The translations under genes were made by a program, and so were the position numbers. From Heliopora coerulea (lineage: Eukaryota; Cnidaria; Anthozoa; Scleralcyonacea; Helioporidae): 64,000 bases of DNA. This document shows positions 3,484 through 41,873 of this stretch, piece by piece; within the stretch, counting starts at the first letter, position 1, and the number at the start of each line of letters is the position of its first letter. Location of the stretch: positions 248,001-312,000 of the forward strand of contig JASJOG010000072.1 of assembly GCA_030142905.1 (NCBI GenBank), in the 5' to 3' direction. Under the pieces are notes generated by a model. That model was not told the DNA's origin. It made no database searches and saw only the letters and a list, made by a program, of their open reading frames with translations.

Positions 3484-3718
3484 AAGCCTGGTTCACATGT
3501 AAGCATAAGCATAAGGACAAGAAAAAAGGCAAAACAAAGTTATGAAGTCAAGGCTGCGACATAAGGATCGTCGTAATCATAAGCCAAGAGCTGAACAAAA
3601 GACGAAACAAAGAAAAATTCTTGTTGTTTTATCTTCGCAAGTCCCAGAGGATATGTCATGCTTTGTTTTCGTATCGATCTCGTCCTTATGATTATGTAGC
3701 TCGTGTGAACCAGGCTTT
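3484..3718 (-). repeat. MITE, GCCTGGTTCACAC family, copy 1
   Basis: About 235 bp with terminal inverted repeats (left AAGCCTGGTTCACA, right GTGTGAACCAGGCTT). Internal sub-repeats 'cataagcataaggacaag' are also inverted towards the other end. It is in reverse orientation to the copies at 5806-6062 and 12668-12921: the internal 'tcttcgcaagtcccagaggatatgtcatgc' segment is their reverse complement. Confidence 0.85.
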
Positions 3719-3783
3719 ACTCTGCATGAATAACTTTGATGTTATTCCTGTCCCCGAATATGCAAATTGTGTAGCTTCGCCTC

Positions 3784-3789
3784 TATAAA
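3784..3789 (+). promoter_or_regulatory. Possible TATA box of the 3835 ORF
   Basis: TATAAA lies 46 bp upstream of the ATG at 3835. The position suits a short 5' leader, but the assignment rests on the motif alone. Confidence 0.35.
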
Positions 3790-3834
3790 GTACTTTCATT
3801 TGGAAAATTAAAGTCAAGCTGTTGGTTATACGTT

Positions 3835-4320: not shown

Positions 4321-5805
4321 ATGGAATGGATAATTAAGAATTCACGGGATGTATCTGGATACATCCCTGGTCTGTATTCGTATACATCCTGCAAATTTTT
4401 GATCATTAATTTCAATTCATCAACCCCGCTTTTCCCTAGAGAATGTCAAATTCCTCCCCAGGTTTTAGTAATGTATGGGAGTTACATCTCTATGAATAAC
4501 ATAGAAAACCGACTCAAACGTGAACTAATGACAATTATGATCAAGCGATCTGCGTCACGTTAACACAGTTTGTTCAGAACTGATCACTCTTTCGTTGAAA
4601 AAAAGCTTCCAAATCAGCTAAAACACTTTAACTGCCGGAAACATTTTTCAGGAAGGAAACAGTGCTTTCGTGATTTATTTCAGCGAGACAAAATGTCTGG
4701 TGGTCAGAGATTTCGAACACAAACCACGTGCAAAACGTCTGTCATACAGTGCTGTAAATCGTGGGGTTGCTGGGCTTATTTTATGTTAGATCTACAGCCA
4801 TTCTTTGGATATTCACTGAGATCAATGAGCTACATCTGGTCGTCGTTTTTGCGCTATTTTGCACCGCATGCGACAGATGTGGATGACAAAGTCGCGTGCC
4901 AAAGTATTTCACTGGTATTTGTTGTAATTATGCCAAAACATATTTTACGTGCCTTCTTCACGCTATAATGAAGATCTTAACGCTGAAGGATCCTTTCAAA
5001 AAAAACCCGAAAAAAAACAAAACAAAACAAACCAGTCAAGGTATTGAACTCACCACCAGGTCATGCACTCTGTCATTTACTTTTATTTTTGATGTGTCTT
5101 GACCGAATTTTTCGCAGATGGTTTACAGGGGCATAGCTCAATTAAAAAGGTCATTTTATCCAGGAGTTGGCAGCCAGCAATGTAACATACCTGAAAAAAA
5201 AGGTGCTAGTGTACACTCGTTCATACAACGCTTCTCCATATCTGGGGATAAACCAGATGACAGTGAAATGTTTAATTACAGTCCTTTCGAAAAGCGCCAA
5301 ATTCGAGAATACCAACATTTTATCAGAATGGAACTCGAATAGAAATCTCGATCTCCGCGTGGCAGTAAATATTGATAACTTGAAAGGGTTAAGTTCGGCC
5401 TTAAATCCTCTTCTAAACTGTTTGAAAGGCAATTAGAAGGGAACATGTGGCTGTAACACAAATGATCAAATGAATTTTATGAAAGTTTATTTCCAAACCC
5501 TCACGCATAGCAGTTAATTTTCCATTGGAATTAATCCTCGGCCGTGACACCCGTTCACACCTATTGAGCAAATCCGGCTTTCAGGAAAACACCACATCGA
5601 TGTTGTTTTTATGTAACTTCTGAACTTCAGAAGGAGTTTGGAAAGGTTACTGCAGAAAATTTGTTTATTTGTGATGTTGGCGAATCGTAAAACTAATTTA
5701 TTAAGAAGAGCACTCTTGAAATTTAGCAAGGCCACGCCTTCCAACATCAGGATTAATAAAAAAAATGAGGACAGGATACTATCGGATCACCCCTGTAATT
5801 TTTAA

Positions 5806-6062
5806 AGCCTGGTTTACACGAGCAACATAAGCATAAGGACAAGATCAGTATGAAGACAAAGCATGACATCTCCTCTGAGACTTACGAAGATAAAACAAGA
5901 ATTTTTCTTTGTGTCGTCTTTTGTTTGGCTCTTGGCTTATGCTTGGACTATGATCTTATGCTTATGATTACGACAATTCTAATGTCGCAGGTTTGACTTA
6001 ACTCTTTCGTTTTGCCTTTAGTTTGTCCTTATGCTTATGCTTATGTTCACGTGTGAACCAAA
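5806..6062 (+). repeat. MITE, GCCTGGTTCACAC family, copy 2
   Basis: About 257 bp starting AAAGCCTGGTTTACACGAGC and ending CACGTGTGAACCAA. The internal sequence is nearly the same as 12668-12921 (ataagcataaggacaagat near the left end, ttgtccttatgcttatg near the right). The 3' terminal repeat has diverged (AACCAAAT instead of AACCAGGCT). Confidence 0.85.
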
Positions 6063-7070
6063 TGTAACCCTAAAGATTTAGCCCTGCCGACTCACCCAAC
6101 CTGAAACATCTTCAGCCGCGCCATCCCAAACCTCAGGAGGAACGCTTTGGTAAATCCTGAAGTCGCGGGAATAGTTTAGTAAAATTCACGTAGAAAAGAA
6201 TTAATTGTAAAAGATTCCAACAGCAATTGGGTTACTGGTCAATTTTTGAGGACCGAGAGACAGAATAATGCACCATATGGGTCAGCGTATTTGATTGCCT
6301 CGTACTTCAAGTAAAAAAAAAGTTTTTCTGTTCTGAATTGGAAAACGAATGCATGCTAGTTCGGCTTGATGTCGAGACAAGAGATATGTTAGTTTTTACT
6401 CATAAATTTGTGATTATTGAGTGTGGAGTAAGGGCCCTGCACCTTTAGCTTGGCATGGGCTTCTCGTTTTGCTTAATCCAGTGCTGTTTGAGGCTCTCGT
6501 TCACAACGTTTCCATTAATCCTTCTAGATTTACACCGGGTTATAATAACTGATGAACCAAGTTAATTTGGAACAATGCAAGTTTTCGTTGTCCTATGCAC
6601 GACCGATAATTCTCTCACGACAACGTACAGAATATTCCTAATCTGCGAAGATGTGGGACCTTACATTTCTGTTTTGAAATATCACTCTCAGTCAGGGAAA
6701 CATGAAGACGATGATTCAATGGTGAACCTTGGGCCAATTCTTGGTTATGAAATGGCGACTTTTTTTGATCGATCGGTATATCGAGAAAGATGGCTTTACT
6801 TCGGTTCGTTTTATGCGTATGTTTGGAAGAAATCTTGTACAAACATAAAAGGTAAGTGCTACAAAAACACATGCATTTTCGAAGTATAAACGTACAATGG
6901 ACGTCTTACGCTTGGTCATAAGTCCGCTGACCATCATAACGAAGAACTTCATTTAATGTAAGTATAGTGTCTCTTAATCTAATTGTTGCTAATTCTCTAC
7001 ACGGTAATCTTCCTTGCAAGAGGAGCAAGGTATTGTAAAGCACTCTTATAATATTATTAAGAATTCATGA

Positions 7071-7335
7071 GGAAATTACAAAGGAAAATCATAACCGTGT
7101 TGTGTCTACATATGTGATGAAGACACAGGTACGTTATAGGTGAAGTTGATTTTTCGGCTTACAAAACATAAATTTCCAAACTTTCTTCACAAACTAGCGT
7201 ATTAAGAGGTGGATTTTATAAGACATTTAAAAACCTCGCAGTACGTGCTTTATGGGGTCTAAAACACTCGGCTAGCTGTCGCCTTGTGTCTTAAATCCCG
7301 ATAAAGCATTCCTGCTCGGTTTTTAAATATTACTT
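7071..7335 (+). repeat. Dispersed repeat, copy 1 of a 7071/32702 pair
   Basis: Shares a long collinear match with 32702-32910, including aggaaaatcataaccgtgt, acaaactagcgtatta and gctcggtttttaaatat. This copy has about 60 extra bp (7236-7300) before the last block. A more distant reverse-oriented relative lies at about 61880-61950. Confidence 0.7.
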
Positions 7336-7472
7336 AACGATCGCTTCGTTAAACTGTATTGTAGGTACGACTCAATTATCCTAACATTTTTGTTACAATA
7401 GTGTCGCTCTGCTTACCAGGCAGGAATCCTGGTTCAAAGTTACTTATCGAATTAGCTGAGTGGATAACATTG

Positions 7473-7632
7473 AAAAAGGGCATGGCTGGAACACAATGTA
7501 AATGCAAAATATATGCTCTGGCTAAAACTTCGTTGCTGAGTAGACAACATTTAAAAAGGGCATGGCTAGAACACACTGTAAATGCGAAATACATGCACTG
7601 GTTAACGCTTCGTTGCATGAATCATCATCACC
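7473..7632 (+). repeat. 80-bp tandem duplication
   Basis: Two adjacent copies start with aaaaagggcatggct at 7473 and 7553 and run through 'gaacacantgtaaatgc', 'atgcnctgg' and 'cttcgttgc'. They differ at scattered positions, so the duplication is not recent. Confidence 0.8.
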
Positions 7633-8782
7633 TAACATTCATGGTCCATCGATACTGGCTCTGGAGACATACAGATTGAAACGAAGCCGGGGGAGGGGCC
7701 GGGAGATCTACGTCATGAGACCTCTGATGCTCAACAGAGGCAAGGTTTTCCTTTTGGAATAAAAAGAGGTGAACCCTAGACCTTGTTTAAATAATTGTTC
7801 CATTCTATAGTCAATCGTGTATAATAGTTGTTTAGTCTCGCAGAGTACGCACAGCCTTTTTCAAGCCAGTGGAGTGCCCTTCGGTTTTAGTTTGGTACCA
7901 GGTGCCCCCCCCCAATAAAGAAAAAAGAACTTGCTCAGCAACGACCTAGTTGGTGGACCGCTTAACTCCACTAGCTTTTTATCGTGGCACAGAGTTTGGT
8001 AGTGTGGTAAAGTATGGTACAGGGTTAGAAGAAGTTGATTTTACGTTTAGAAGGGGCTGTTTGTTTGAAAATGTGAAAATACTACACAATCGGTTGCTTG
8101 TTTTAAAAGCGAGACGATCAAATGACTGCAAGGCTGCACCTGAACAGAAACGGACAGACGCTACTTCAATCCATCTTCAAAAAATCATGTAGCTAAGTGA
8201 CATCTAATTGAATTAAATGGTTTAGGAAATAATTTATTAATGCAACTATAAGATTGTTTTTTTCGGTCTGATCCGTTCTTAGGATGTTTAACTCAAGAGC
8301 TTTTCCTTTAGTCGCCGTCACCTCGCGGTCCGAAAACTATTTCGCTTATTCACCAGCTTTTGTTTACAAGAGGATTGACCTCAACAAGAAGAATAAAGAG
8401 ATCTGAGAGTTCGGCTAAACAAACAGACAATAGTCTGCCTCGTCGATGATCCTCGTCTTCTGATTGGTCTGTAAATATACAATTGCGGTAGTCACCTATG
8501 GCGGATATGACAGGTTTTTATTGGGGAGTTCATAACTGAAGTTGGCACAAACTACACCCTACATCCCAGACCATATGTCGTTATTTTTGTGCTGCGCCCG
8601 TCCAGCGTCGAAGTCCCAATTCCAGGTCAGTCCCATTGATCGAAACGCTGATATTTTTACAAATCTATCGCTTTTGTTGCGCGAAAACTCCATAACCGCG
8701 CGATTGCACTGAAAAATGGAATTCGTGTCGTTTCCTGATAAATCAAACTTCCAATTAAAAGTGACACATGAGTGTCGGGCGT

Positions 8783-8799
8783 TTGACACGTCGTGTCAA
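8783..8799. promoter_or_regulatory. Palindrome upstream of the receptor start
   Basis: TTGACACG-T-CGTGTCAA, a perfect inverted repeat with 8-bp arms about 170 bp before the receptor ATG. It could be a dimeric transcription-factor site. Nothing else supports function. Confidence 0.25.
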
Positions 8800-8968
8800 C
8801 CGCTGAGAATCGACCCCTGCAGCATACCGGCCATTACTTTCTTATCTGCCCTATATTAGTTCAAAACCTTGCCGCTTCGGAATCCTATGCTTGTGCTCCT
8901 CTTCATGCGACGTCTCCATTGCAAGCGACAAGGACTCGGTTTCTTCGAGCACTCGTTCTTCCACGTAA

Positions 8969-11900
8969 ATGGCTCTGCTGTCTGGAGACCTTTCTGCCCT
9001 GTTGTTGTGCTTGATCGGTCTCACAGGTGAGATCGTTTTTTCACTACTGATTTATTGTAACATTAGATTCTACCATCATTTGTTATCCGTAATAGGTCCC
9101 TGACGGAGAACTTGTTCACACTGAGTACCATTTGTCAAACTCAGTGACACGTTCGAGTAAACGGAGTCTTTCCGTTTTATCACTGTTCTCTGCCCATTTC
9201 GACTAGGCCGGATAGTATTCTTTTAAATGGGGCTAAGCGTCAAGGATGATGAACGCCGGACAGTTTATCATCATTGCCCTGTGCTTGTTGAAAGGCCTCG
9301 CAGTGTGACTGTATGAACGCCAGGACCGTGGGTTTAGGTAAATGAAGGAGTTGTTCTCGCTGAAGTGCTCAGAGGGAATTGAATCATGGCAGACAGTGCT
9401 ATTATGAGACACCGTCAGCTTTATAAGACAAGGTATCGACTGAGCGGTTGCCAGTCATTCATGGCGGACGCGTCTTTTAAGTAAATTATAAAATGTCTTG
9501 TCTTTCCTTGATATCAAGGAGTTAAAGAGTGCTTGGTTTAATATCTAAACAAAACTCGGCAGTGGTAAAGTTCTTGCACGAGTGGAGTGCAACTCTGCGA
9601 TTGTTTACGTTCACGCTAGGCTCGTTCACGGATTTGTACAACTTCGATCAGCGTGTCAGCAACGAGAGCCATAAATCATGCGAGCTGTCGTCTGCTTAAT
9701 TTCGATAAAATTCGCACATCACTGCCCTTGATTTAAGTTGAATTAGCAGCCACGCTGGTCAAATGCATATGGATACTGGTCCACGAAATGACTCAAGTTA
9801 TTTTCCTCAAACCAATCGTGAGAAACATCTGCCCTAAATGAAAAGTCGCTCAATTAGGGCGTTCCAAACCGGATGAAAAGGATCGCGTGAAGTTTTGTTT
9901 CATTTGCTTACCGTTGATGCTCAAGGATTTTAAAACGTTTTCTTGGTTGATGAATTTGCGCAAAAACTTACTTTGAGATTGTTAGCTTTTCAACATAGTG
10001 AAAAATCTACATCTTACCTGGCTTAACCAGTTTTTCTTAAATTTGTTGCGCTTCAGCGTGGTGTTGTTTTAGCCGAGTCGGCATCTTGTTGGCCTGATGG
10101 ATGTCATGCCACTGGGACCAACGAGAGATTGGAAACAGTACTGCGTCGTCCGTTTGAAAACTTGAGAACTTCAAAAGGGCAGGAGGTTTTTGCGCGCGCT
10201 GAGAGCGTGGATTGGCGTTCTAAGAGGAATAAGAACCTTCGTGACGCGCGATTTGGTTTTCTCATTAACTCAAAAAGTTACAACACAACAAAGTTACGGT
10301 GTGGCTAATTCAGAACGAAGTGTTTTGTCACTCCTAATTATCGCTTTTTCCCAACACACCCAACTACCTATTTTCCCCCGAATGTTTTAGATCGAACCCC
10401 ATTTTTTGAGCATAAGTGTTTTAAGGAATCAGATTTAGTTGCCTTTTAGATTTGCTTGGCACAAACCATTTAAACCTTATAGGCAAAAATGTCGATATCA
10501 AGATATCAATGCAAAAAGGAGTAAGGTGTTCGTGACTTTGGAATTAGCCTTTGGCAAGAAGAACAGCACACTTATGCGCTAGAGAGAAAAGATTTCCTCA
10601 TCGGTTTAATATCGGTACGATTCATTCGCCATGTTAAGATTAGAGCATTTAAAATTCGTCTAGTGCAAAGAAAGAATTTTCGAACCCCATAAACCATGAA
10701 GGGATTTTTTTGGAAGTCTAACAAACTTTAACAGAAATAATTAATTGTACTCTTTATTCGTTTTACGTAAGGAAATTCATCAAACGTTGCTTGTTTAAGC
10801 GACAATGTCTTCGTCACTGATGATATGCAAAGTCAACCACTGCTTTTGGCATTGCTTGTTTTGGAAAATGTTTGTGAGCGACAGAGCTTGGCGATCAGCC
10901 GATAATAAATGCCGCTTTTTCCTTTCTCATAACTTGCCGCTTCGATCTAGAATTGGGCAATTTATGAAGAGTAGTTTGTACTAAGGCAGATTATTTAGGT
11001 AGATTTTTTTGTCAAGTCATTTGGTCAAAAGAGTAACTCCAAATTCCTCCCTTTGCGAAAAGTCTACAAATGGTTCAACACTGTCCAACTTTTAACAAAG
11101 TTTTAAAACACGTATTCCACAAGAAATTAATGTGGCAATGTAACACACTTGAACAAATTTTATGGTAGTTCTGTTGTGGTAAGGTGTTCCGTTAAAAAAT
11201 CGCGGATATAAGTCGATTCACTGGAAAATCACATTAAGCCATCTGGTCACGCAATTCCCGCATTGTCTCAGTTTGTTGGCACGTGTGATTTTTAATTCTT
11301 TGCTAAACCGTGATCGTGAGTTGTTAAGTTTCTTGTTAAGAGCTCTTTAAGTCTTTCATTGACTCTTGAAATAATCCCGGCGTTTCCTGCCCATACAAAC
11401 ACAAGAGTTCAACGCAAGGTAAAGGCTTCAAGCGAGTGAAGCAAGCTTAAGACTGTAGAGGCCAAGAGCTATTAGCCTCTTTATGCTTGCGCCTTTTTCA
11501 CTCCAGTTTTCCTTGCAACGCAAATACAAACGAAAGCGCGATAAAGAGGCAAATTAGCTTTGTTGTTGCTTTTAAGAATACCTGTGTTAAACCATCTAAT
11601 TATGTACTGCCCTGTTATCAGGGATAGAGATTGAATAACGAAGGAACGGAAAGAATCGCTCGCATACGCTGAAGAATTAAAACATTAAATGCAAAGTGAA
11701 ACTTAAAGACATCATGAAAGGCTTGCTTCCTTAATGAAAATGATCGTGCGTCTGTGTGTTTGCAATTTTCCTGACGCTTTATTGATGCTCTCATGAACGG
11801 ACACAAAAGACAGGAAACAAGCGAAATTGTTTCTAACTCTAGTGGAGGTTGAGTATTAAAGTTTGTGATGATAATTTTCACTATTACGTTTTGTTTGATG

Positions 11901-14900
11901 TTATTTCGTGTCAAATCGTATATCCCGAGTTTTGTTACTTAGAGCTTGCGTGGTTTTTCTGAAAGGTCTTCGTCGAAGACGACCGTTCCAACTTCGCACT
12001 TCGGGTTCAAATGAGAACCATGCGTTAACAGTATAGTTATCTGTTTACATCTCCGTTAAAGCTTGTCCAGACGCTTATGGCGTCAAAAGTACGACTGTGC
12101 AGCGCTTAGACAGCATGTTTTCCACCTGTTGCAACAGCGCTTTCTTCGTGGCGTCCCGTTTTACTTACAATCAGTGAATTTCCTCACCTCTAACATTCCT
12201 CTTCCTCTTATTAGGTGTTAGTTTATTTGCACAACTGTAGTGGCCATTTCACACCAAGTCGCTGGTATAATCTTTTAATCCGATAGTTCAGCTTAGCTGA
12301 GCGTTTTTAACATAAATCTGTGCTTGAGCATGTTCACTATGATATACGGTCTAGACTAAATCAAGTTTCTGTCTTTTACTAAATTGTATTTCGGGGATAT
12401 TAGAAACCAAACCTTTGATAGTTTCTCTACTGTAATTGTCGCTTCCTGATTTTCATTTTACTTCGGCTTGTGCTTTGCAACCTTTTAAACGTAATCTCAT
12501 TTCGTATTGTTTATGAAGAGTCTTTGAAAATTACTCCTGTTTCAAGGTTCACAAGATTAAACAAAATAGAGCCAGTGTTTCTATATTTTCTATGGTGTAT
12601 TTTATAAAACCGTGCTAGTTCCTCGTCCTGCAGGCCATCTAACTAGAAAACGTAATAGTGGCAGCTTAAAGCCTGGTTCACACTAGCGACATAAGCACAA
12701 GGACAAGATCTATATGAAAACAAAACATGATATCTCCTCTGGGACTTGCGAAGATAAAACAACAAGAATTTTTCTTTGTTTCGTCTTTTGTTCGGCTCTT
12801 GGCTTATACTTGGACTATGATCTTATGCTTATGATTACGACAATCCTTATGTCGCAGGCTTGAATTCATTCCTTTGTTTTGCCTTTTGTTTTAACCTTAT
12901 GCTCAAGTGTGAACCAGGCTTAAGGACTTTAAAAACCGACGAGTATATGCGTAACCATCTTTGAGTAGATGGGTACACTTTCAGTTTGTTGTTCGATGCT
13001 TTTTTTCTTTTTGTACACAAAGGTAGCTTTGACGTGGCACATTTATTGGGAACTAACTCCTGGAGTCTCTATGAAATTACGTCTTCATCTTAACATTGAC
13101 ATGCTTAGCATGTCTTGTTATCAAGGCGTGTTCCCGGTTGCTTCCTTTTTCTGTAAAAAATGTTAAATGACTACAATTTTTCGCAAACGCATTATCGCGA
13201 ATCGATATTTGAAGAACATCCTACGTAAGATGGGAGGGAAAGGGCTTCAGTTCAGACATTGTGTATATCGAATGACCCAAGTGGCGTCCGTCAGTCTCAG
13301 TCTTCTTAAACTTGTGAGTTTGGTTCGACCCTAAGTTTTGTGTTCCTCTTTTTTCAAAGAAATTTCCTTACAAAACACTCCCACACAAAACTGACAGCGC
13401 TAACAAGGTCCGACTGAGGAATGATCAATACCTCATCCTTTCTGCGGTTTAGTGCATCAGCAAGGGTCAAGTAGGTTTTAAACAGACGCGATTGGATGAC
13501 AAAACAAACCTGTCGACATATGCTTATCTTAACCAAAAGAAGAAAGTATCCATTACGGTCTTATCACATAGTCGCCCTGTCCACTCCTAGTTAGCGTAAT
13601 CTTTCACAACTAGAGCGCTGTTTTGTAGCTTTAAATTTTAAATTTTTTTGGAACGCAGATCAACCGTTTATTTAATTCTGTCGTTAAAAGTTGTCCTTCA
13701 GCGAAACGTGGATGAACAGTAAGGATATTTACGTCTTCAAGAGACCATCTCTGCATTCTCTGAGATGGGCGAGTCGGGAGTTATTTTCGGCCGTGGTTAA
13801 CGAGGTTCTAAATGTGACAAGATTTCAAATTCTCACATGTGGGAATCACTGCCACATTTGGATTTTGGAAAGAACATCATTAACCCATTACGAGCAATTC
13901 TCGAATCCAACCTCGACTGATGTCGAACGAAGAAATGAGAGCGATTCGATTTGAACGAAGGAACAGAAACGTTCACAGATAGACTATTACAGAGGTCAAG
14001 CAAACTTGAAGCTCGGACACACCACAAGCAACGGAATGTTGCGTGAAATGCTTCTGGGGGCCATTTACCTGATCCGATTGTTGTAGACGATTGTTCCTCC
14101 TGGATTATGTAATGTTGTCTCAAAGGCTTAATTCCTGTTTTCGATTCACCCTGTAATAGGGACCTTATGATCTAAGACGTCAACTTGAACGACGACGACT
14201 TTTAAAATGTCGGCATTTGAAGAAACCATAGTTTATTGACCACCATGTTTGATACTTGTGGCTTGTTTTATGACTACTAAAACGCTCCAGTTCTCCTAAA
14301 ACGAGCTTAGTCTCCAGTTAAATTCAATGTTAAGTAACACCCTCCTTTCACTCAGCGGGCTGACGTCGTCCTTAACCCTTTAGCGGCAATTTTCCAAGAG
14401 GTCTCCATTTGATAAGTAAAATTGTCTGGCGTTAGACAGGTTAAAATATAATAAGTTGCGGAATAAGTTGCAAGAGTACTACGTAAAAGGCTAACAAAGA
14501 TAGTTTAACCCTTTACGTGGGAATTTTTACGGGAGATCTCCATTTGATAAGTGAAACTGTCTGGTTTGAGACGGGGTAAAATATAAGTAGCAGAATTGCA
14601 ACAGCGCCACATAAAGGATTAGGTGAAAACGGTCTGGGTGACTTATGGAGAACGACGGTGGTGTTGAGGATGCTCTGGTGAATGAAAATTATCCACTTTC
14701 TTCGTTTTGCTTGAAGAAATCGTATGCGACAATGTTATCGTATAAATAGGACCTCATTGTATACACGAGAATAATATTGGCTTGGGAATGTGTAATCCTT
14801 AGAGTATCCTGACCATTTTTTTTTCCAATGCTTGCCTTAACCCGAGGTCTCAAATGACAACGTTGCTCGCTGATTTTAATCTCATTCAGGTCTCTGTTAT

Positions 14901-17900
14901 TTACCACCAACATGCATTGCTTGATTTAGGCGAGCTCTGGTCAGTATTTAAGCACGTCAATGTTTTAAGGGAATTTCGTGATAATAGCTCCCAGCCTGAC
15001 GAAGATTCTCGCCAAAATAACCCTAACTCGCGTTTGCGACGCCGAGGATGAGCAAGGTTTCGTTAGTAATTCAATGTCACTTTACAGGTGTCTTTATATG
15101 TTAGAGGTTAAAGTTTAGCGATGAAAACCGCAACAGATTCATAATACTTACTGTGAGTGTAACTTTTGGACCACAGAAAACCTGCTTAGATTAGCGTGGG
15201 CGACTAATCTCAGAGGTAATGCAACGATGGGTGGAAACCATGTTGATGTAATGAGAGCTGAAGAATAGTTAGGAATAGGAAGATAACGTTCTTGAATATC
15301 ACATTTATCTCGCCTAAAAAATTCAAATTCAAATTCTAATTCTGTTTTTCTTAAATTTTTCAGTTGGAAGTGTAGCCAATTCCACGAAACCGAAGAAAAT
15401 TAAAATTAAACTAGGCTTCGTCGTCCCTCTTGACAACAGACTAGCAGCTACAGCAACGATTGGAAGGGAGCTTGTAAGTTTGTAGAAGGTTGTTGCAAAT
15501 AAGTAGAGTGAAAAAAGGACAGTACATGGCAAGGTGTTTGTTGAAGCAATGGCCTTGTAATAAATTCTCAAACTCTCTTTCGTTTTAATAAGTCTTGTAA
15601 TGTTTCACTCACTCAAACGCCAGACGATTTTATTCTGATTAACACCACATGATGTTACCCTGTCAAACCACAGACGATTGTACTCTTCCTAATCCAGTTT
15701 CACCCGTCATAGAATGACGTCTGAATTGTAGTGAGTTAAAGATCTCTTAAAGTTTAGACTAAATTCCCTAAACGTTGCTCAGACATACAGTTAGGTAATA
15801 ATGTCGTAATCACGTTTCATTTGTTTGGTTGTTTCAAACGTTCTGTCATCGTGTTTTCTGTCTTCAGGAGTCGGCATTCAGATTGGCCGTAGAACTTATT
15901 AATAATGACGCAAAAAAGCATGGCAGCAAAATAGAACTTGCTACAGATTTTTCAAGTACGTAAAACGCTTTCTTTGGGAAAACTACTGTATTTTCAATGA
16001 GAAAGTGTAAACATTCGTGGGCGTGTAGTTATTTGCAATTGATACTGCTAGTAATATTTAGCTAGTTTGTATCGTAAATGGAACAAGGCCATTGGGAAGC
16101 ATATCAAGAAATTTTGGTTAAAATGTGCGAAAATACCCTCATGAAATAAGGGATTATTGTTGTTATTACCGTTATCATTATCGTGATTATCATCATTATC
16201 ACTATCTCAATCATTATCATGATCACTGTCATTATCATTGTTATTGTCATTATCATTACCATTATCACTATTATTATTATCATTATCACTATTATTGTTA
16301 TTATTATAATTAATGTTAAGAAGTAATATTTCAAGTACGAGTTGATGTTCTTCCTCCGATTTCTAGATACCGAGAAACTCGTTAAAAAACTCGGCTTGGC
16401 TTCGTTTTTCAACTCGTTTCTCGGTATCTAGAAATCGGAGGAAGAACACTAAACGAGTGTTTGAAATTACTTCTCAAACGAACCAGTATTTTAGGCGAAA
16501 ATCCAGCCGAAAGTTGGAAAAATTCAGCTGTAATCTTCCTCCAATTTCTAAATACTGATTAATTATGTATTTCTTTTGTTTTTTCTTCGTGAATTATTAA
16601 TGAGTTTGAGAAAGTATCTTACCATATTTTGTAAATAGAACTTGTATGGTCATTTTAAGCTTGCAACATGTCGTTTTGATTTTTTGATGTCTGTTCACGA
16701 GACAGTAGGTGATTCTTACATTTCTCATGCCATTTTCTCCTTCCAAGGTCAAGTAAAAGATAGTGGATATAATGACCAGTACCAGTGTCAACAAATAGCC
16801 AAGCAGTTTGCCGCCGACCAGGACATTGTTGGAGTCGTCGGCGCTTTCAGATCAACTTGTTCCATTGCATTAAATCAATATTTTAAAACAAAAGGTATGA
16901 GGAAACATCGACTTTTAGGTGTAACTGGGGTCGAGAGGGACACCAGGATTCCTGAACGGAGGACAAAATAAATAATCATTTCCTTAAATTACAGAATGTT
17001 GTAGAGCGATATCCCGAGTAATTTTTTTTTATTTAAAAGCCGGAAAAATCAAATCCTCCAGCAATGCATATCCCGGAGCAAATATTGTAAGCACAAATCA
17101 ATTTTTTGTTGGAACATTGATTTTTTACGTAAACGAGGAAGGGAGACAAGTCCCCATTGTCTGCTTCTGTAGGTCAGGGAATAAATCAGTTTGATTAATC
17201 GCAATGTGTAAACATACCTTGAGCAAAAAACTTCAGCAGAGATTCAAACCCAAGTCCTTTGGGATTTTAGTCTGAAATCCGATTGAGCTTTAAGGTCAGA
17301 GTTTGACCTTGATCATGGGAAGATGGTGTCTACATCATGGCTTACCTGCATAAAATATGCTTATGAACTTGCGGGCTGTAATGATATCAGCCATTGTCGT
17401 AGCCTATGGGGAGGGGGCAGTTGCTCGCTTACTTTTTGTCATATTAAGGTTTGTTACAGATTTTTTCCAAATTCTTGACTATGATTGGTCAAAAACGTTG
17501 AGAAAATTCTCAACATTTTTCAGCACTTCTAGGGGCATTAACCGCTGAAATTGTCCTTTTTTAAGCCCACGATGCTATTATCCGCAGGCAATATCTTGTT
17601 AAACAAATCGATATCATGCACGTGCTGAGCTCATGCCACTGATGAGTTGTCCATCTTGTGCAAAGCTTGCCACTAGCCACAAAATAAAATTTCTAAGAAT
17701 TTTAAATCTTTTTTTTTTTCCAGTTCGTTTCAAATGGACCAATCTGTATTTATCCATTGCCTTAAAATGTAACTTAACAAGCTTGAAGATGTTTCTTGTC
17801 AACGAATGCCTTTAAGTGTGTGTTTTTGCTTGTTTAGCACGAACTCTGACCCAAATATCCTATGGTTCAACAGCGACAGAACTGTCCGATAAATCAAATT

Positions 17901-20900
17901 ATCCAAGATTCTTTCGAACATGTCCAAGTGATCGTTACCAAGCTGAAGCCCTGGCAGACATCATCAACATGTACAAATGGAAAAAGGTAATTGTTTTACT
18001 GAGCGATTCTCACAGTGCCTGGAAATTGAAATTCAGATTATGGGTTTAAAGAAGAATTATTAGAAATCAGGCTGTGTGGCTATCGGAAAACGTAAATGCA
18101 AAATAAAGATTAGAGCCCAGCTTAATTCTTTGCTGAGGGGATAAATATTAGATATTATACTATCAAATCTTTGATTTTTTCTAGGTCAGTACAATTGCCA
18201 CAAGTGATCGTGACGGCCAAGACCTTGCTAACTCTTTCCAAAAAGATCTTCAGAAACGAAGGGTTACAGTGATGGACTCAGCCCGATTCAATCGAGGTGA
18301 CTCCTCAAAAATTGTTCAACAGAAAGTGGAGCAGGTTGGTGATAGCTATTAAGCGTTCATACGGCCAATCCGCTGATCTCTCCACAAGACTGAATCGAGC
18401 ATCCTATCGTTGGAAAGGCCAAAGGGCCAGTCAGCGAAATTTGACCTGCACCTTTACTAAGGAACCAACGTCGTTGTAAATCTTTTTGCCCAGCACTTTC
18501 AAAAGTGTTCCCTGATCCTCTGTATGGCAAAATTGAACGAGTTCTTAGATCGAAAGACGGCTTTATCAACAGAAAACCCTATATAAGGACCATAAAGAGG
18601 TCGCACAGTTGGTCCCTTAGCAACGGCCGCCGGAATTCACTTCCGGCTTCATTTTCTGAACATGGGATGCTCGATCCAGTATTCTCTAGAGATCAGTGGT
18701 CACTCCCACAGGGGTAGTTTCCTCCCTGTAGTTAGGGGATCCGTCGGACTTGGTCCTAGTCACTTACAACCGTACTCGAAATAATGTCATTGCTAATCCC
18801 CGGGGATAGTGACCCTGGTCAGTTATCTCTAGAGATGAATGATCCCTGTAACTTTATACTTCTTTAATAGTTTATAAAGTCAAACAAACCACTGTATCCT
18901 AAGTCTATTTACACTGAACGAGATCTACAAGAATGGCGCCTAAAAAGTTTTAGATCAGGGTACCGGATGTCCAGGTATCGAAATCCGGGTAGGGTGTATA
19001 TCGTCACAATCCCCGATAGTTAAATATGACGCCATGATAAAGCATAACCAAACCTTAATCCTGAAAATCAGGACTGACAATCCTAATTAAATATCTAGGT
19101 CTAATCCAGAGTTGGATGACGAAAGTGTTACTTATCCTCATAACACTTCCGGCCTCTGAATTTCATGCAAGTCACTGGGTATCCACGCGAATTTTTGGTA
19201 GATTTATCGGGAGTTGAAGTAGCGTCGGTCATTTTGTTTGCGACGGGAAAGTGAAAACGATTCACTGTATGGTTACTTTGTCAGTGATTTTGATCGACAA
19301 TGCTCGTGGATATTAACTCTTATTTCGAAATAGGAGATATTTTTCTTAGAGTATGGCCTCGCTTAACATTGTCATGACAGCTTTAGAACAGAGAGTTGGT
19401 AAAAGAACACTAGTGAATTTCCTTTCATTCTTGCGAAATGTTGTTTCAGGTAAAGAAAGCCGAAACAAGGATCAACCTGATTAGTGCTCTTCCTAACGAC
19501 GCGCTTACAGCATTTCATCAGATCCAACAGCTGGTAAGTGTCAAGGTAGCATCTTCTCGTAGCCTAAAAAGTAATTATTTTGTGTAAAAAATGAACGATG
19601 ACCCAAGTTCATAAATAGGTCCATTTTGACGATATTCTCCCTTTAGGTCTTACTTGATCATTACCAAATCACTGTTTTCTTTCATTCGTTGTTAGGGCAT
19701 GATAGGCGAAGGCTGGGCTTGGCTTGTATCTGATAAAGTCACCGCCACATCGTTTAGAAATGAACCCACATTACAGCAAGCCATGGAAGGCTTAGTCGGC
19801 TTAACTGTAAAATGTGAGTTTTTATGTAACGTGTTTCTCCCTAGTCCAGCTTCTTCTCGACTCTTTTTACATTCTAACGGACATTTTTACACTGTGTTAT
19901 CGTAAAGGGGTCAACATTTTTCGAATGTCAGAGTGTATGTCCGTGTGAAGTTGCCTTCGCAGAAGACATTTTAATCCTTTCATGCCTGAGACGTCTCACC
20001 TCGACGAGTAAAATCGTCTGGCGTTAGCCAGAGTAAAATAAAGTCGGCCACGGACCGGAAACGGTTAACACGTGAAAGATGATAAGATAACTCTACTATA
20101 GGTTGAAAGAATTCTTTGAATTCCTTTCGGTGAAGTTACTGTCGTGAACTAAACCACCAAAAGAGAGTGAGCTCTGGTAAGATGAAGGTGTACCAGGTTT
20201 TTATTTCTCACAATCTTTTTTTTTGTTCTCACTGTAGCTGGTAGTGGAATGCGGTATCTGGATTTACTGGTGTTGTGGTTGGAAAAAGTTGAAGGTCAAT
20301 ATCCTGGTGTTATATGGTCTGAAAATGTAAGTAAAACAAAGTTATATATGATGGTGTTAAAACATTAGAAAGTTTAGAATCGGCAAAGTCAGACTTCAGG
20401 ACTTATGAACTTGGCCCTTACGAACTGTCTATTAGTCTGTGTTTTAATCTGCCTCTGTCTGTCCATTTCCTGTCTATCCGCATGTCTACCCCTGTATGTT
20501 TTCGTCGGGTATTGTCATTCTTAATTTGAACAATTTTCTCTCTTTTCTTGTCTGTCTTTCGATGCCTCTTTTCTTTTTTTAAATATTTAATTTCTTTCGA
20601 AGATAATTTCAACTAAGCTTTAGTAAGCGTGTGAACCGTAGTGAATAGTGCAAAACCTACGTGAAAGTTCTCAAAAGAACTGTAGCAATGCTATAACAAG
20701 AAAACTGTGACAACTGTGCTTTGTAGTTTTACAGTTTTCTTGTTAGCATTGCTACAGTTCTTTTGAGAACTTTCACGTAGGGTTTACACCATTCATCATG
20801 GTTCATACGCTTACTAGAGCTTTGTTTAAGTTTGTCACCACGGCAAAATTGTCATTTTACTATAATTTAAACTACATTTTTTTCAATTTTTCAGCGGCGG

Positions 20901-23900
20901 CCTAAAACATCCACTTTCGTCTCTCAAGTATATGATGCTGTCTTCGCGTACTTCAAAGCTTTCGACAAACTTGCTAAAAAAGGGATTATCCAACCGGTAT
21001 GAAAAACCGAAATTGTACAAGCCACTTCGTACAGACGCTTCTTCACTTCAATTTATTGAATACGTCGTCCTCCCCACTCCTTCGATTCTTTATTCTTGCT
21101 AATAAAAGTTAACTTGTTCATTTTTTTCCTGCTTTTTATTCACAGGGAGAGAGCGTAAGCAGACTGCGGGATATCGTCTTCGACGAACTGAAAAGTTTTA
21201 ACGCTCCCACTGTCCAGAACGGTTTTCTTAGTGCCACAGGTGAATGGTTACATTAAGTTTGGAGAACGTTTGAATTTGAGGAAACTGCTGAAGGGCTGAA
21301 TTCCCTGACCTCGCGCTCTCATTTAAATTCCCCTCCTGAAATCATTACGAAAATTAATTTTATTTAAAAAAAAATATTTAAAGGCGGAAATATTCAGCCA
21401 GATAACACTTTCTTATGAATTAAGCCCAAACATTCGAAGGTTTTTGGCCTCCATTCCAAAAATTATCGTTTTCCTTCTTAAAATTTATTATACTAAACAG
21501 TTAAACCGTACAATTGGAAATTGCCATCCCAAACAACATATATGGAGACGCGTCCTCATCACACCAGATGACTTATAAGTTTTTGGTAAATAGAGACTTG
21601 CAGACTGGCGGTAGATATATAACACCATGACAAACCAACGCACATGTCATCCTCTCTACTCGCCTGCAGAACTTGATTAGTTCCAGTATAGTTCGAGCAT
21701 CTTAACAAGAATCAGAATATCAGTCCTTGTCAGCGGCCTGGAAGACTTTTAAATTAACTAGCCGTAGGGTGCATGGTCGGATCCAGAAGCAACGTTTACA
21801 GAGAGGCGCAAAAAAGATTTACTCTTCCCATGCCCATGTCTTCAACTGTATATATTTTGTATTTTCAGTGTTCAGCAAGTCATAACCCATTTAGCTCTTC
21901 CTTAGATCTTCCTCTATCAACTTTTTCCCATTGGCATAGGACTTCTATTATGTCGCTTTAGCTAACGCCAGACGATTTTACTCAAGGGCAGAGCTCCTGC
22001 TGTGAAAGAGTTATAGCGATTTCAGTTAAGCCATGTACATTCAAAAGTCCAAGATGTCCCTACCATCGCATTGGTACTCACACATAGTTATAATTGAGTT
22101 TTAATGTTACTGCTGAAGTCATAGAAATTCGTAGGAATACGAGTATTAGAATAAAGAAATTTTTGTTGGAATTTTATCGCCAATGTCAGCGATCTTGTTG
22201 ACGATTTTCAGTCACCTGTTGAGTAACAAGATTACCTGGTTGTCATCAGTTTACCCAAATTCAGTTCGCTAGCGTAAAAATCACAGTCAAAATTAGAATG
22301 TAGGATCTGCCTTGAAATCATCAGTTGCAGTTGGTTTGATGTTTCATGGTTTATTATACGTCTTATTTATGTTTTATATCAGTTGTAATATCATTGTTAC
22401 ACCGCGCGCTCTTTAAGTTTTCGTTATCTTTTCTACTATTTTCTTAGGTGGCTTTCTTTATTTCGATAAACATCAAGATGCTCCTCCTTATTACAACATC
22501 GTTAACTTAAAGGTAGATGTCTTTCAGTGGATCAAATAAATGTAACTTAAAGAAGATCTCCCTTGGGTTAGATGAATGACTTATAAGAGGCTAAAAGAGT
22601 TGAAGGATAAACGAAAAAGGTTGAAATGATGCGAAGGACAACCAGCGAACGAACGAGATGACAAATGATGAAAAGGATGGAAGGGGAGAGGCGGAGGAGA
22701 GAGAACAGAAGGGAAAAGAAAGAGAAGGGAAGGACAGCAGACGAAAGGTGGAGAGAAGAGGAAGTGTAGGAAGGGCCACGAATGAGATGAGCTGTGGTGG
22801 AATGGAATGGGATAGGACGGGGGAGAGGAATGAGAAAAGGATGGATGGATTGATGGTAGGGAAGGGGAGAAGGACTAAGGGAAGGAAGGAATGATGGAGA
22901 GAAAGAGGAGCAAACGGACAAAGAAATGAATAGGATGTGAAGGAGATGGAAGAAGAAGGCAAATGAAAAGAAACTAGAGGTGGGAGAAAAGAGAGTTAAG
23001 GAGGAAGTAGGAAACGAAATGGTGAACAAACGAAGAAGTGAATCCATGTCAATGAAAAGAACTTATGATTATCCTGATTTCTTAATTTTTTCCTTATCCT
23101 TCGCAGAATAAAAGATGGGAAAACGTTGGTTTCTGGAGCAGGTCCAGGTCTGGTCTGTCTCTTCAACCAGGTCAAATAAAATGGCATGGTGACACTATGC
23201 AACCGCCTAGTGATGAAGGTAAACCTGGAAAGATCACCATGAAGATTGGTTTCATCACTCCATTTCATCCTGAACTGACCGGTCTTGCTCACCTTGGTCG
23301 ACAATATCTTGAAGCCTTCCAAACCGTTCTTGAAATGCTGAACAACGACGACTCCCTTGCAGTTGACTTTATGGGAATTGAGAAAGATTCAGGACCAAAT
23401 CCTTCTCAGACTTGTCAGGATGTAGCGAGGTCGTTCGCCAAGTCTGGTGTCGCAGCTGTTATTGGTGGTTATCGATCGATTTGCTCTATGAAAGCTGCGG
23501 ATGTACTGGGTAAGGGTATTGAATCAGGGGTGGCGCCCGAGGGGGAACAGAGGGGGCTACATCCCCCTGTTGGGGAACGTTAGCCCCCTGTCGGGGAATA
23601 ATTAACAATCCGTTGGGGAATTTTCACTGATGAGCACATTTATGTATTGTACAAACTATAAGCAGTTGTTATTGATTTAGCCAAGAAAGTTAACAGACTC
23701 TTATTTTTTTGTCAAATCTAAAAGTAAACTGTTTCTAGTCACTTGTTTCGATTATTCTTGCGAAAAATAACGTGATGTTTTCGACCTTCAAATAACGAAA
23801 TTATAAAGGGAGCATAGTCATGGCCCCTCTGGTTTCTGCCCTCCTGTCGGGGACTTTGGCCCCTGCGTCGGGGAATTCGTGGGGCCATCACTGTATTGAA

Positions 23901-35038: not shown

Positions 35039-35265
35039 ATGGTCTGCCATTGCACTAGAGGGGTCTTTCTAGTCGGAACAACGTTTGAAATTGCCGGAAC
35101 GGACTTCGCTGGGCCAATCAAGTACAAGCAAGGCCGAAAAAAGGAAGGGAAAGCCTATATAGTAACCTTGGCGTGCAGCCTCTGCAAAGCTGTGCACTTG
35201 GAACTACTGGAAAATCAAGAAACAAAATTGTTTATCCCCTGTCTCAAATGATTTATCGCGCGATT
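35039..35265 (+). pseudogene. BEL/Pao integrase core fragment, inverted
   Basis: Plus-strand frame with TTFEIAGTDFAGPIKYKQG, then KAYIVTLACSLCKAVHLELL, CLK, a stop, and FIAR. This is the start of the integrase catalytic core of BEL/Pao elements (the D of TDFAGP is the first catalytic Asp). The rest of the element reads on the minus strand, beginning directly at 35253. The two pieces face each other across the palindrome ATCGCGCGAT (35255-35264). Confidence 0.75.
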
Positions 35266-35558
35266 GTGGTACGCTCTTCCGGTAACATGCTAGGTGCTGG
35301 TGTCGCTGTTGCTGTCGCACTAAATCTCTTGCATCCGTAGCACTGCTTTCTAACGCGTTCAACTAGACGCCTCAACTTTGGAAACCAGTACTTTCCTCGA
35401 ATACCGGCCACTGTTAGACCAAATCCCCCGTGGAAAGTCGCGCGATGAATTTGTTGGATCAATTTTTCAGTGAACTTGCCATCTCTTGGAAGATATATTG
35501 GATGTGCCCCTTGTATTCGTCCACGGCAAGTTTCCAGACCGTGAACATTAAGACGCAA
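35253..35558 (-). pseudogene. BEL integrase zinc-binding (HHCC) segment
   Basis: A 101-codon frame with H-x3-H (HRATFH) about 29 residues before C-x2-C (CYGC), the GKYWFPKLRRLVE spacer typical of BEL/Pao integrases, ending LPEERTTIAR. The frame stops exactly at the inversion junction with 35039-35265. Confidence 0.85.
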
Positions 35559-35939
35559 GTCGTGCTGTTCATTGATCTTGAAGTAGTGCGGCTGCTGTCT
35601 TTCTTCTTCTTGAATTCTTCTTATCCACCAATTTCTTTAATTTATTTATATCTTCTGTGGTTATATGGCCAATTCGCTTTGTCGGGTTTCTGCAGTTGTT
35701 TATAAATCTCTTGATTCATACCCAACCCTAAGCATGCGTTGCAAATTACTTCGTTCCAGGAGATCATCGAAATCATCACTGTTCGAGTTGGTCTTCGCCA
35801 CGTTGAACATTTCTCTTACCACTTTGGCTTCGTCCTCAGAGGTTGGTGACGCCTTCGTTACCGGATTTTCTGGCCACTTGCTCTTGTCTTGCAGCCACTT
35901 AGGACCTCTTTCCCAAAGTTTGGAAAATTTGAGTGGATC

Positions 35940-36233
35940 ACCTCTGCTTGCGATGTCGGCAGGGTTTCCTTTCGTCGGAACGTACCTCCATTGTATTTCC
36001 GAACGTAGTTGAATCCTAGCAATCCAGTTGGCTACGAATTGTCTATATTAACCACTGCCTTTGATCCAGTTTAGTACAACTGTGCCATCCATCCATCCGT
36101 ATGTTCGTGGTGTTGGGACCTTATCGAACGCATTTCTCACGTTCGTCAGCAAGTTTGTAGCCATATGCCCAGCGACAAGATGTCGGCGAGGTGTGGTCAG
36201 TCCTTTCTTAGCCAAACGACTTTTCGCTGCCAC
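35940..36233 (-). pseudogene. BEL RNase H segment with a stop codon
   Basis: Reads RKSRLAKKGL-like and WMDGTVVLNWIKGSG, then TAA, then in the same frame YRQFVANWIARIQLR, WRYVPTKGNPADIASRGD. The 'tDS...WI' and 'V-P-x-x-N-P-A-D' blocks are the RNase H end of BEL/Pao elements. The stop interrupts it in the middle. Confidence 0.8.
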
Positions 36234-36689
36234 TAACCGTTGGGTATTTCCTGCGCGTTGTCTAGCTGCTACATAAATATCTGCTCCTACCCCTTGTGCT
36301 GATGCGTATCCAAACCCGTGTAACTCAATTTCCTCGATCTTCTCTTAGTGGTCTACGATTGGTTGTGGTACCAGTTGCTCTCGAGGTAATTGCTGCTCCC
36401 ATTTTTGCCATCGCTGTAGAAGGTCTTTCCTTAGTGGAACGTTCCGCGCTGCTTTGTCCTCACAAACGGTCTCAGTAAATCTGTTTTCCAGCCAGGGTTA
36501 ACGGAGCAATCATCCCAAAAGGGTCATACATGCGGGTCAGTTTTTGAAGAATTCCTCGTTTCGTTCGTTCCGCTTTTCCATCAGGAATCACTACACTTAG
36601 GGCTTCTTGTAGTTTGTTCCACTATAGTCCAAGAATTTTTGATTCATTAGGTTTAATGCTAACTGCTGTTTTGCGAAGGTTTCTGCTGT

Positions 36690-37130
36690 ACCTTCCACTA
36701 CCTGACCGTCTTCTAACTCACTGACATTTGAGCTCCATTCGTGCAATTGGAATGTTGCATCATTCACAATCTTCACAGTTTCTTGTTTATTTTGTTTGGC
36801 TTGCTCGACAGTCTGCCCACCAGTTAACGAATCGTCGACTTACCAGCTTTTTCTGAGCTCCACAACTACGTCCGGACATTTTTCTTCCCAAGGATCCAAG
36901 TGGGCTTCCAATACGCCGTTTAGCAAGAAAGGAGACGGTGCCAATCTGAACAGTAAACGAGTGAAGCAGAATGTCTCTATTTCTTCCTCTTCGTTTGACC
37001 GCCAATGAAACGTCAGCGCATCTCGCTCTGTCTCTCGAATTCTTATTTCCAAGAAGGCTAGTCGAATATCTCCCGTCACAGCAATTGGACAGGCTCGCTG
37101 ACGTACAAGGACGTCCCAAAGATGGCACAA
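36690..37130 (-). pseudogene. BEL reverse transcriptase, C-terminal half
   Basis: Frame from CHLWDVLVRQRACPIAVTGD through FRLAPSPFLLNGV to LRKSW, then a TAA at the position of the Tyr of the catalytic YVDD, followed by VDDSLTGGQTVEQAKQNKQ. The stop is in the catalytic box itself. Interrupted upstream by the insertion at 37131-37350. Confidence 0.82.
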
Positions 37131-37350
37131 AAAGTTAAGAGGTTGATAGACTGCCGAATTTATGATAAGGAATTCTAACGTTTCGAGCTGTATGGCCCTT
37201 CGTCAGGGAGTGAAACGAGTTCTAAATGAGAAATGGCAATTTGACTAGGTTTTATTCTAAAGCAAAAATTAACCAATGAAATATGAGAAATAAAAACAAA
37301 CAAATCGACGACCTAGCAACGACAAGGAAGTCACTTGCTATATTTAACGG
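37131..37350 (-). mobile_element. Nested insertion with hammerhead-ribozyme-like core
   Basis: About 220 bp separates two reverse transcriptase segments that would otherwise be contiguous (PGPPLQN at ~37360 and CHLWDVLV at ~37130). On the minus strand at ~37210-37175 it contains CTGACGAAGGGCC - loop - GCTCGAAAC, the conserved CUGANGA / stem II / GAAAC arrangement of a type I hammerhead core. Penelope-like retroelements are known to carry such motifs. The stem I pairing is not convincing by eye. Confidence 0.5.
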
Positions 37351-37640
37351 TGATTAGTAAATTCTGTAGCGGTGGGCCGGGGTTCAGACACTCGTTAAGC
37401 AATGGGGGCTTGTGGGGAAGCACGTGCCAACGCATCGTAAACGATACGTAACTTGGTTATTGCTGATGTTTCACGTACAACCGCTTTATGGGGAACATAG
37501 AACTCTTTACGTTTAACTTCTTTAGGCACCTTTTCGATTATGTTGGCTGTGAATTGTTCTCGTATTACTTCGTTGTACGCCTCGGTTTGGCCATTACGTT
37601 GTTGTCGTCGCGTCAAACTCTCCAAGCGTCGCAAACTTTC
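37350..37640 (-). pseudogene. BEL reverse transcriptase, N-terminal half
   Basis: Frame with AYNEVIREQFTANIIEKVP, FYVPHKAVVRETSA, TKLRIVYDALARA, then (frame-shifted) LLNECLNPGPPLQN. This is the fingers region of BEL reverse transcriptase. It is cut by the nested insertion. Confidence 0.82.
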
Positions 37641-37839
37641 ATACTCATTATTAGGTAACTCACGATGGTTTCATACCATCCCTCGTTCGCTCGACGAAGC
37701 TGTTCTTTAAATTCGGCATGCACCACTGCTTGGTCGTTTTCTGATCGGTCCTCTAGCTCGAGAACGTCCAACTTGCACAGTTGCTCGAAATCAATTTGTG
37801 AGGTTTGGGTTAGCAGCATGGTTTTCAAACGCCGCGCCT

Positions 37840-38330
37840 GGACTCATGATGAACCATCCCATTTTGGTACGCTCCGCAATTGGTTCGCCGTCGCTGCCAA
37901 CCAGTGGTTTTGTTTTGTTCTTCTTCGAGCGTATTCGCCATTTCCGAGGATAACGTGTACAGGTAACTTGCTTTTTATGTCGTTGTCAGTTACTGCTGCG
38001 CCACATAAATCACCATAATCACGGATTAAATTCCGGTAATTCGGATTGTCAATCGTTAACAGCTCACCTTTATCAACTGTAATTAATCTCACTTGCAATT
38101 TGTGCTTTCCATTGACAGATTCCACGTTTAGTTGATGTGTTTCCATGCGCATTCTTTTGGACGACATCAGCATTTCTACTTCTTTGGTTTGGGTCTCCAC
38201 TGGTTTCGTTCTCAAAATATTCACAAGCTTCGCTGAAATATACGAACTTCAGGAGCCCGTATGAATTAACCCTCGACATTGGACACCAGTGACCTTGATC
38301 ACGATGACAAGGAGTATGCCCTCAGATGGC
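37840..38330 (-). pseudogene. BEL aspartic protease segment, active site lost
   Basis: In one frame: ILLVIVIKVTGVQCRGLIH-TGS, a TGA stop, SSYISAKLVNILRTKPVE. The family active site D-T/S-G reads H-T-G here. Downstream the block PNYRNLIRDYGDLCG and KSKLPVHVILGNGEYAR is the usual end of the BEL protease region. Confidence 0.8.
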
Positions 38331-41810: not shown

Positions 41811-41873
41811 AAGAATTGATGTAATGTTGTTTTGTTTTTTTTAGTGTCGCATTATCTAGTTCATGGTCGATAT

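Follow-up and report, generated by a model that had tools for sequence, protein, structure and literature searches.

A predicted receptor with three tandem flytrap domains, one transmembrane helix and a short tail in Heliopora coerulea, and its family in cnidarians and a sponge

The window analysed here, a stretch of 64,000 nucleotides from Heliopora coerulea (GenBank assembly GCA_030142905.1, contig JASJOG010000072.1, positions 248,001–312,000), carries on its forward strand, between positions 8969 and 33993, a gene for a protein with three Venus flytrap domains of the ANF_receptor type (PF01094) in tandem. These domains, numbered D1 to D3 from the N-terminus, are followed by one transmembrane helix and a cytoplasmic tail of 28 residues. 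The presence of this three-flytrap gene is confirmed. We tentatively favour reading its product as a single-pass co-receptor that would bind amino acids, lack an effector of its own and work through a partner. On this reading, the effector was lost or never present.

The gene model was obtained with a Viterbi splice model that combined a codon table with splice-site scores and was run over positions 8000–34500. These bounds were taken from the coordinates of a first-pass annotation of the same DNA, and the model was made without its exon list. It picked a start at 8969, an end at 33993 and 28 exons. A skipped exon at 32228–32317 (exon 24, D3, weak acceptor, 87% identity to the relative P0001) was added by homology, resulting in 29 exons, 1350 codons and one stop. 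The continuous frame of 29 exons and 1350 codons proposed in the first-pass annotation was hence reproduced by the splice model together with one homology-added exon. The model scored 227.5. The reverse strand reached 16.7 and three block shuffles 16.4, 10.8 and 28.2; this control is partly circular, since cores of this very gene served to train the codon table. Against P0001, to which the window protein is 79% identical over 99%, exons 2–28 showed identities of 59–96% with at most one gap per exon. Exon 13 (23107–23509, 78% to P0001) encodes the closing strands of D1, a linker and the first part of D2, and exon 19 (27677–27865, 89% to P0001) the closing strands of D2, a linker and the start of D3. 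As each of these junction exons spans a flytrap border, the three domains belong to one gene and not to separate genes.

At the 5′ end, exon 1 (8969–9026) encodes a putative signal peptide (residues 1–19). Its identity to P0001 is 20%, which amounts to no homology support, and it was the sole candidate in a scan, restricted to positions 900–15300, that looked for hydrophobic exons running in the correct phase from an ATG to a donor. A search for homology to P0001 or P0002 gave no convincing alternative signal-peptide exon; the best matches (15324–15419, E 1.9e-05 for P0002) reflected mostly exon 2 identity, with an upstream frame devoid of ATG, and were rejected. At the 3′ end, exon 28 (33712–33853) encodes a stalk and the transmembrane helix, which was located by hydropathy with its ends (residues 1298–1322) set by eye, and which is also present in the structural model of a P0001 piece described below. 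This exon is open in a second, cysteine-rich frame as well, and the homologues back the helix frame. One helix and a short tail were recovered as originally annotated, except that the tail was counted as 28 residues instead of 27. Its remainder and the stop lie in exon 29 (33931–33993), whose acceptor is weak and which follows a strong donor at 33853. Exon 29 is 50% identical to P0001, with three gap positions, and was the best match to the P0001 C-terminus across the whole window. This match is weak (E 0.55), so the exon also rests on its position and frame.

Each third of the protein gave a near-full-length match to PF01094, in agreement with the first-pass annotation, with 162.7, 145.9 and 208.1 bits (curated cut-off 25.4) over profile positions 3–352, 3–352 and 2–353 of 353, respectively. 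Peripla_BP_6 also scored above its cut-off in all three thirds, overlapping the flytraps, and weak matches to SOAR, Fe-ADH, RVE6, BNLF2a and Peripla_BP_5, all below their cut-offs, were dismissed as chance or overlap. Up to E 1, the window protein gave no Pfam match to the seven-transmembrane (7TM) domain PF00003, to NCD3G (PF07562), which is visible in mGluR- and T1R-type rows, to a tyrosine kinase, kinase-homology or cyclase domain, or to the iGluR domains PF00060, PF00497 and PF10613. AlphaFold models were those of pieces of P0001. The D1 piece had a predicted local distance difference test score (pLDDT) of 90.9 and a predicted template modelling score (pTM) of 0.92, and the piece comprising D2, D3 and the helix had a pLDDT of 84.6 and a pTM of 0.53. 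A Foldseek search with the D2–D3 model ranked the calcium-sensing receptor (CaSR) and mGluRs first. In VIA-align, mGluR flytraps ranked highest for D1 and D2, followed closely by plant glutamate-receptor-like and bacterial amino-acid-binding proteins; D3 was represented by a leucine-binding protein. The closest sequence relative of D3 in the PDB was CaSR. The models show the two-lobed periplasmic-binding-protein type I fold, and all three domains are predicted from them to fold like amino-acid-binding flytraps.

The homology search matched 22 proteins, 18 of which (P0001–P0018) were taken as the family; together with the window protein, they make up the 19 family rows. Seventeen span 1282–1410 residues, P0013 (1109 residues) is missing portions of D1 and D3, and the N-terminus is absent from a few others. 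The named organisms comprise an octocoral, several hexacorals, the jellyfish Rhopilema esculentum and the sponge Sycon ciliatum, and P0001, P0006, P0008, P0010, P0011, P0016 and P0017 were classed by similarity. The window protein is 76% identical to LOC114530333 from Dendronephthya gigantea, a record marked LOW QUALITY that is itself 87% identical to P0001, and 46–47% identical to LOC5515302 from Nematostella vectensis, LOC110253659 from Exaiptasia and LOC114950055 from Acropora millepora. A check for the same architecture in other cnidarians, as suggested by the first-pass annotation, thus found it in several, and it is already present in public databases as uncharacterised proteins. The four just listed resemble the window protein in length and likewise have three flytraps followed by one helix and a short tail, whereas tails vary between classes, as do the pockets of D1 and D2. 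By these alignments, the triple-flytrap single-pass protein is a family and not the oddity of one genome. A PF01094 profile search of the 430-Mb genome yielded at least 61 matches, three of which, on contig C690, correspond to this gene.

Inspection of the alignment revealed the helix after D3 in 17 of the 18 relatives, with P0015, whose C-terminus is apparently mispredicted, as the exception; tails of 16–63 residues follow it in those 17. The precomputed Pfam domains of the 18 relatives included no 7TM, cyclase, kinase or channel domain. These data bear on whether the gene could be an artefact, with separate genes fused in the model or with a 7TM or cyclase domain in fact spliced on downstream, as the first-pass annotation had warned. 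We give this a very slight chance, which derives from the signal-peptide exon without homology support and from the strong donor at 33853 combined with the weak acceptor and weak match of exon 29. Against it, the junction exons join the domains, full-length homologues exist, most relatives keep the helix and short end, and exon 29 aligns with the C-termini of both P0001 and P0002. Moreover, seven relatives lie on contigs of 4.6–5.7 kb (P0001, 1348 residues on 4762 bases), which are too short for introns like those of the window gene, so these relatives look like transcripts. A downstream 7TM or cyclase domain was rejected because the homologue C-termini finish in a short tail, and a Pfam scan of 10 of the 176 open reading frames (ORFs) of the window, outside the gene and on both sides of it, gave no match to either.

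Phylogenetic trees were computed with 10 of the 19 family rows, the first comprising 44 domains including other receptors. In this tree, the cnidarian D1, D2 and D3 formed separate clades (support 100/99, 99/96 and 99/98), which persisted when P0033 and P0034 were added (100/99, 99/98 and 100/99). As each clade holds anthozoan rows together with Rhopilema, the three domains were already distinct when Anthozoa and Medusozoa split. All 30 family domains grouped together, apart from mGluR-type receptors and P0019, at 97/91 in the 44-domain tree; adding P0033 and P0034 gave a tree in which the family plus P0033 separated, with support of 89/90, from the class C, P0019 and P0034 rows. The domains of the sponge protein (P0018) and of P0033 were on long branches and had no clean placement in the D1, D2 or D3 groups. 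A wider, alignment-based search returned 16 proteins, six of them members of this family and the other ten class C receptors of the ordinary kind. A search with the sponge protein, which scores only candidates sharing most words, returned five, namely itself, P0033, an algal cyclase and two plant proteins, with the cnidarian rows missing.

Two triple-flytrap proteins have effectors. P0033 contains three PF01094 stretches, a hydrophobic helix at position 1493 and a tyrosine kinase match of 144.1 bits, which breaks off with the end of the protein, at position 147 of 258. It is collinear with the window protein at 24% identity over 1317 positions, and its kinase best matches EGFR and Eph kinases, with no insulin-receptor kinase among the best 60 of 358 matches. 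P0019 combines three flytraps with a class C 7TM domain (146.5 bits), and its domains form a clade of their own (100/99), so its tripling looks independent. These sequences suggest that flytraps were tripled on more than one occasion and that such triple sensors are combined with different effectors. The first-pass annotation had named no characterised receptor with three flytraps in tandem and a short tail as known to it; none was found in the open-licence literature searched, although P0019 and P0033 show that triple-flytrap proteins with a 7TM or kinase domain exist. As a separate observation, P0034 from the green alga Chloropicon primus combines one flytrap with protein kinase and guanylate cyclase domains.

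In mGluR1, the main residues that bind the amino-acid groups of glutamate are Ser165, Thr188, Asp208, Tyr236 and Asp318 (PMC2680970, extract). D3 of the window protein has all five of these pocket residues, D2 has asparagine for Asp208, and D1 has aspartate for Tyr236. Counterparts were set by alignment with CaSR and mGluR-like sequences, at what we take to be the places of the five residues there. P0013 was left out of the column-agreement counts that follow, which comprise 18 rows, and P0009, whose tail is cut, and P0015 were kept in the pocket counts. The D3 set is complete in 16 of 19 rows, sponge included, the exceptions being P0012 (histidine for the tyrosine), P0015 (asparagine for an aspartate) and P0013 (four of the five not covered). 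The D2 set is complete in 12 of 19, with asparagine for Asp208 in three octocoral-type rows and departures in four medusozoan-type rows too, and that of D1 in eight of 19, with aspartate for Tyr236 in the octocoral-type rows. All five D3 positions belong to the 82 columns, out of 372, that reach 94% agreement or more; the corresponding figures are two of five positions (45 of 388 columns) for D1 and one of five (62 of 380 columns) for D2. D3, with all its pocket positions highly conserved, would consequently be the domain under the strongest constraint to bind an alpha-amino acid. These alignments single it out as the domain most likely to hold the ligand, the likely ligand class being an alpha-amino acid, and they indicate that the D1 pocket is degenerate. 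A third, apparently unpaired cysteine (residue 994, exon 21) beside the D3 pocket is present in 18 of the 19 rows.

The same pockets are relevant to a ligand-independent use, in which the flytraps would serve as adhesion or spacer modules or would sense an ion or another small molecule. The degenerate pockets of D1 and, in part, D2 in several lineages, together with CaSR being the best PDB sequence relative of D3, lend it some weight. We nonetheless deem it improbable, as D3 retains the complete amino-acid set all the way from the sponge to the corals, a conservation that a purely adhesive role would not call for.

By alignment, the tail shows hardly any conservation from one class to another. 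Mean identities of the tail of the window protein, computed without P0013, P0009 and P0015 (the latter with an apparently wrong C-terminus), are 48% to two octocoral-type rows, 17% to hexacorals, 13% to medusozoan-type rows and 14% to the sponge, compared with 76–82%, 47–49%, 31–39% and 21–30% in the flytraps. Among the family tails, no motif common to all classes was seen. YVN, a Grb2-type SH2 motif, occurs in all three octocoral-type tails, that of the window protein included, and nine of 11 hexacoral-type tails end in hydrophobic-x-Val, a PDZ-like motif. Both look like adaptor motifs in sequence, though short motifs are weak evidence. YxxPhi, one internalisation motif looked for, was found in two of 19 tails.

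A self-sufficient receptor, whose short tail would recruit adaptors or a G protein, would account for the conservation within classes and for these two motifs, and the tail of NPR-C carries Gi activator sequences (PMC10212560, extract). We regard it as unlikely given the lack of a cross-class motif, the low identities to hexacorals and medusozoan-type rows, and the fact that short motifs can arise by chance. A clearance or decoy receptor, which would bind an amino-acid-like ligand and remove or buffer it without signalling, is a possible though doubtful alternative. It would fit the absence of an effector domain and the poorly conserved tail, and it has a precedent in NPR-C, a receptor without cyclase that clears natriuretic peptides (PMC10212560, extract); a kinase-bearing relative exists here just as cyclase-bearing NPRs exist beside NPR-C. 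However, three sites on a large chain would be an expensive way to remove amino acids that are freely available, the internalisation motif is rare, and the PDZ-like ends of most hexacoral-type tails suggest anchoring.

The co-receptor reading would place at the octocoral cell surface a receptor with three tandem amino-acid-type flytraps on one transmembrane helix. The membrane-proximal D3 would close around a free alpha-amino acid or a close derivative, and D2, plus D1 where intact, would bind a second ligand or merely shape the assembly. Flytrap closure would then alter the pairing of chains, and a partner protein would read this change, as the chain has no effector of its own. The window receptor is perhaps the counterpart of kinase-bearing triple-flytrap receptors. 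The first-pass annotation had suggested a ligand trap, a clearance receptor or a co-receptor, each of which would fit these results. Several points weigh against this reading. The pocket positions were assigned through CaSR and mGluR-like sequences, as mGluR1 itself was not in the alignments; the counterpart of its glutamate-selecting Lys409 could not be placed in the alignment; and kept pocket residues in a sequence are no proof of binding. CaSR, for its part, also senses an ion. In the two-domain model, the pTM indicates that the relative placement of the domains is unreliable, so no claim is made on intramolecular pairing of flytraps. Finally, tails are conserved within each class and may therefore have a function.

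The nearest described kinds are class C G-protein-coupled receptors (GPCRs), Venus kinase receptors (VKRs) and NPR-C, and the window protein lacks a defining feature of each. Class C GPCRs (mGluR, CaSR and T1R) share with it the flytrap fold and amino-acid-binding residues, but the window protein has three flytraps and neither NCD3G nor 7TM was found in it. NPR-C has a tail that is likewise short and a single flytrap, whereas the window protein has three. It has in common a flytrap ectodomain and one helix (PMC10212560, extract). It binds peptides, whereas the window protein has an amino-acid-type pocket set. VKRs are also single-pass proteins with a flytrap ectodomain, and several are activated by amino acids and one by calcium (PMC3703292 and PMC2680970, extracts); the window protein differs in its three flytraps and the absence of a kinase. 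P0033 shares three flytraps and a hydrophobic helix and differs by its tyrosine kinase match, and P0019 shares three flytraps and differs by its class C 7TM domain. EvgS-type sensors, bacterial histidine kinases with two flytrap domains, resemble the window protein in having more than one flytrap before a single-pass anchor. No description of a triple-flytrap effector-less family was found in the open-licence literature searched by titles, abstracts and gene identifiers, and the extracts of PMC12716839, PMC3703292 and PMC12225738 contain no mention of this architecture.

The usual definition of a flytrap receptor is one flytrap coupled to one effector. A family conserved among corals, anemones and one or more jellyfish, in which three flytraps stand without an effector, indicates that a sensor can be both multiplied and uncoupled, and provides a clear test case for effector-less receptors in early animals. 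To our knowledge, coral receptors for amino acids or feeding stimuli are poorly known, and this protein is a candidate for such sensing in corals, whose ectodomain could be produced and assayed directly for amino-acid binding. Cnidarians show feeding responses to amino acids. A much broader proposal, which we consider a long shot, is that single-pass proteins with three flytraps form an ancient class of animal receptors for free amino acids or gamma-glutamyl peptides, found in a sponge and in cnidarians, the cnidarian form being the missing sensory subunit of the feeding response. The same three-domain sensor would then occur with a tyrosine kinase in some lineages and without an effector in others, and the cnidarian form would sense dissolved glutathione and amino acids in feeding. 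Hydra responds to glutathione by feeding (PMC8067216, extract).

The remaining exons, all on the forward strand, rest on the splice model and the P0001 alignment unless stated otherwise, and those bearing pocket residues also on the family alignment. D1 starts in exon 2 (15364–15473, 81% to P0001) and continues through exon 3 (15868–15955), exon 4 (16748–16894; Cys99, Ser121 and Cys123), exon 5 (17838–17986; Thr146 and Asp166), exon 6 (18185–18334; Asp194 at the place of mGluR1 Tyr236), exon 7 (19450–19533), exon 8 (19696–19813; Asp275), exon 9 (20238–20326), exon 10 (20895–20996) and exon 11 (21146–21239) to exon 12 (22448–22512, 59% to P0001), where its profile match ends, the profile adding to the evidence. 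Beyond the first junction exon, D2 is encoded by exon 14 (23993–24153; Thr567 and Asn588), exon 15 (24333–24482; Tyr616), exon 16 (25264–25465; Asp697), exon 17 (25936–26015, 96% to P0001) and exon 18 (26702–26959), which contains the end of the profile match. D3 comprises, after the second junction exon, exon 20 (28324–28443), exon 21 (29343–29717; Ser954, Thr977, Asp997 and Tyr1025), which is based on the alignments and was also a match in the genome-wide PF01094 search, exon 22 (30263–30346), exon 23 (31530–31745; Asp1105), the homology-added exon 24, exon 25 (32445–32597), with the end of the profile match, and exons 26 (33166–33224) and 27 (33302–33355, 84% to P0001), each with a closing strand.

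Elsewhere in the window, retroelement fragments lie just downstream of the gene on the reverse strand (35253–38248), including an ORF at 35253–35636 with an Integrase_H2C2 match of 38.8 bits; by eye, the element resembles the BEL/Pao type. On the forward strand, two overlapping ORFs in different frames span 41820–43023, the second of which matches Sulfotransfer_1 (38.3 bits), an ORF at 3775–4317 has a QRICH1 domain (42.7 bits), and one at 329–928 is similar to the C-terminal region of an AMP-binding enzyme, at 21.2 bits, short of the 24.5-bit cut-off. A long trinucleotide-type repeat tract at 63199–63894 is open in several frames on both strands. In the same genome, seven PF01094 matches with open frames of 860–921 residues lie close together on another contig (C601:85071–196279), apparently an expanded intronless flytrap cluster. 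The locus L002 is an ordinary NCD3G-7TM receptor, and a 546-residue open frame at L001:1276–2916 contains a complete flytrap (248.5 bits), with no effector domain in the frame at E 0.001.
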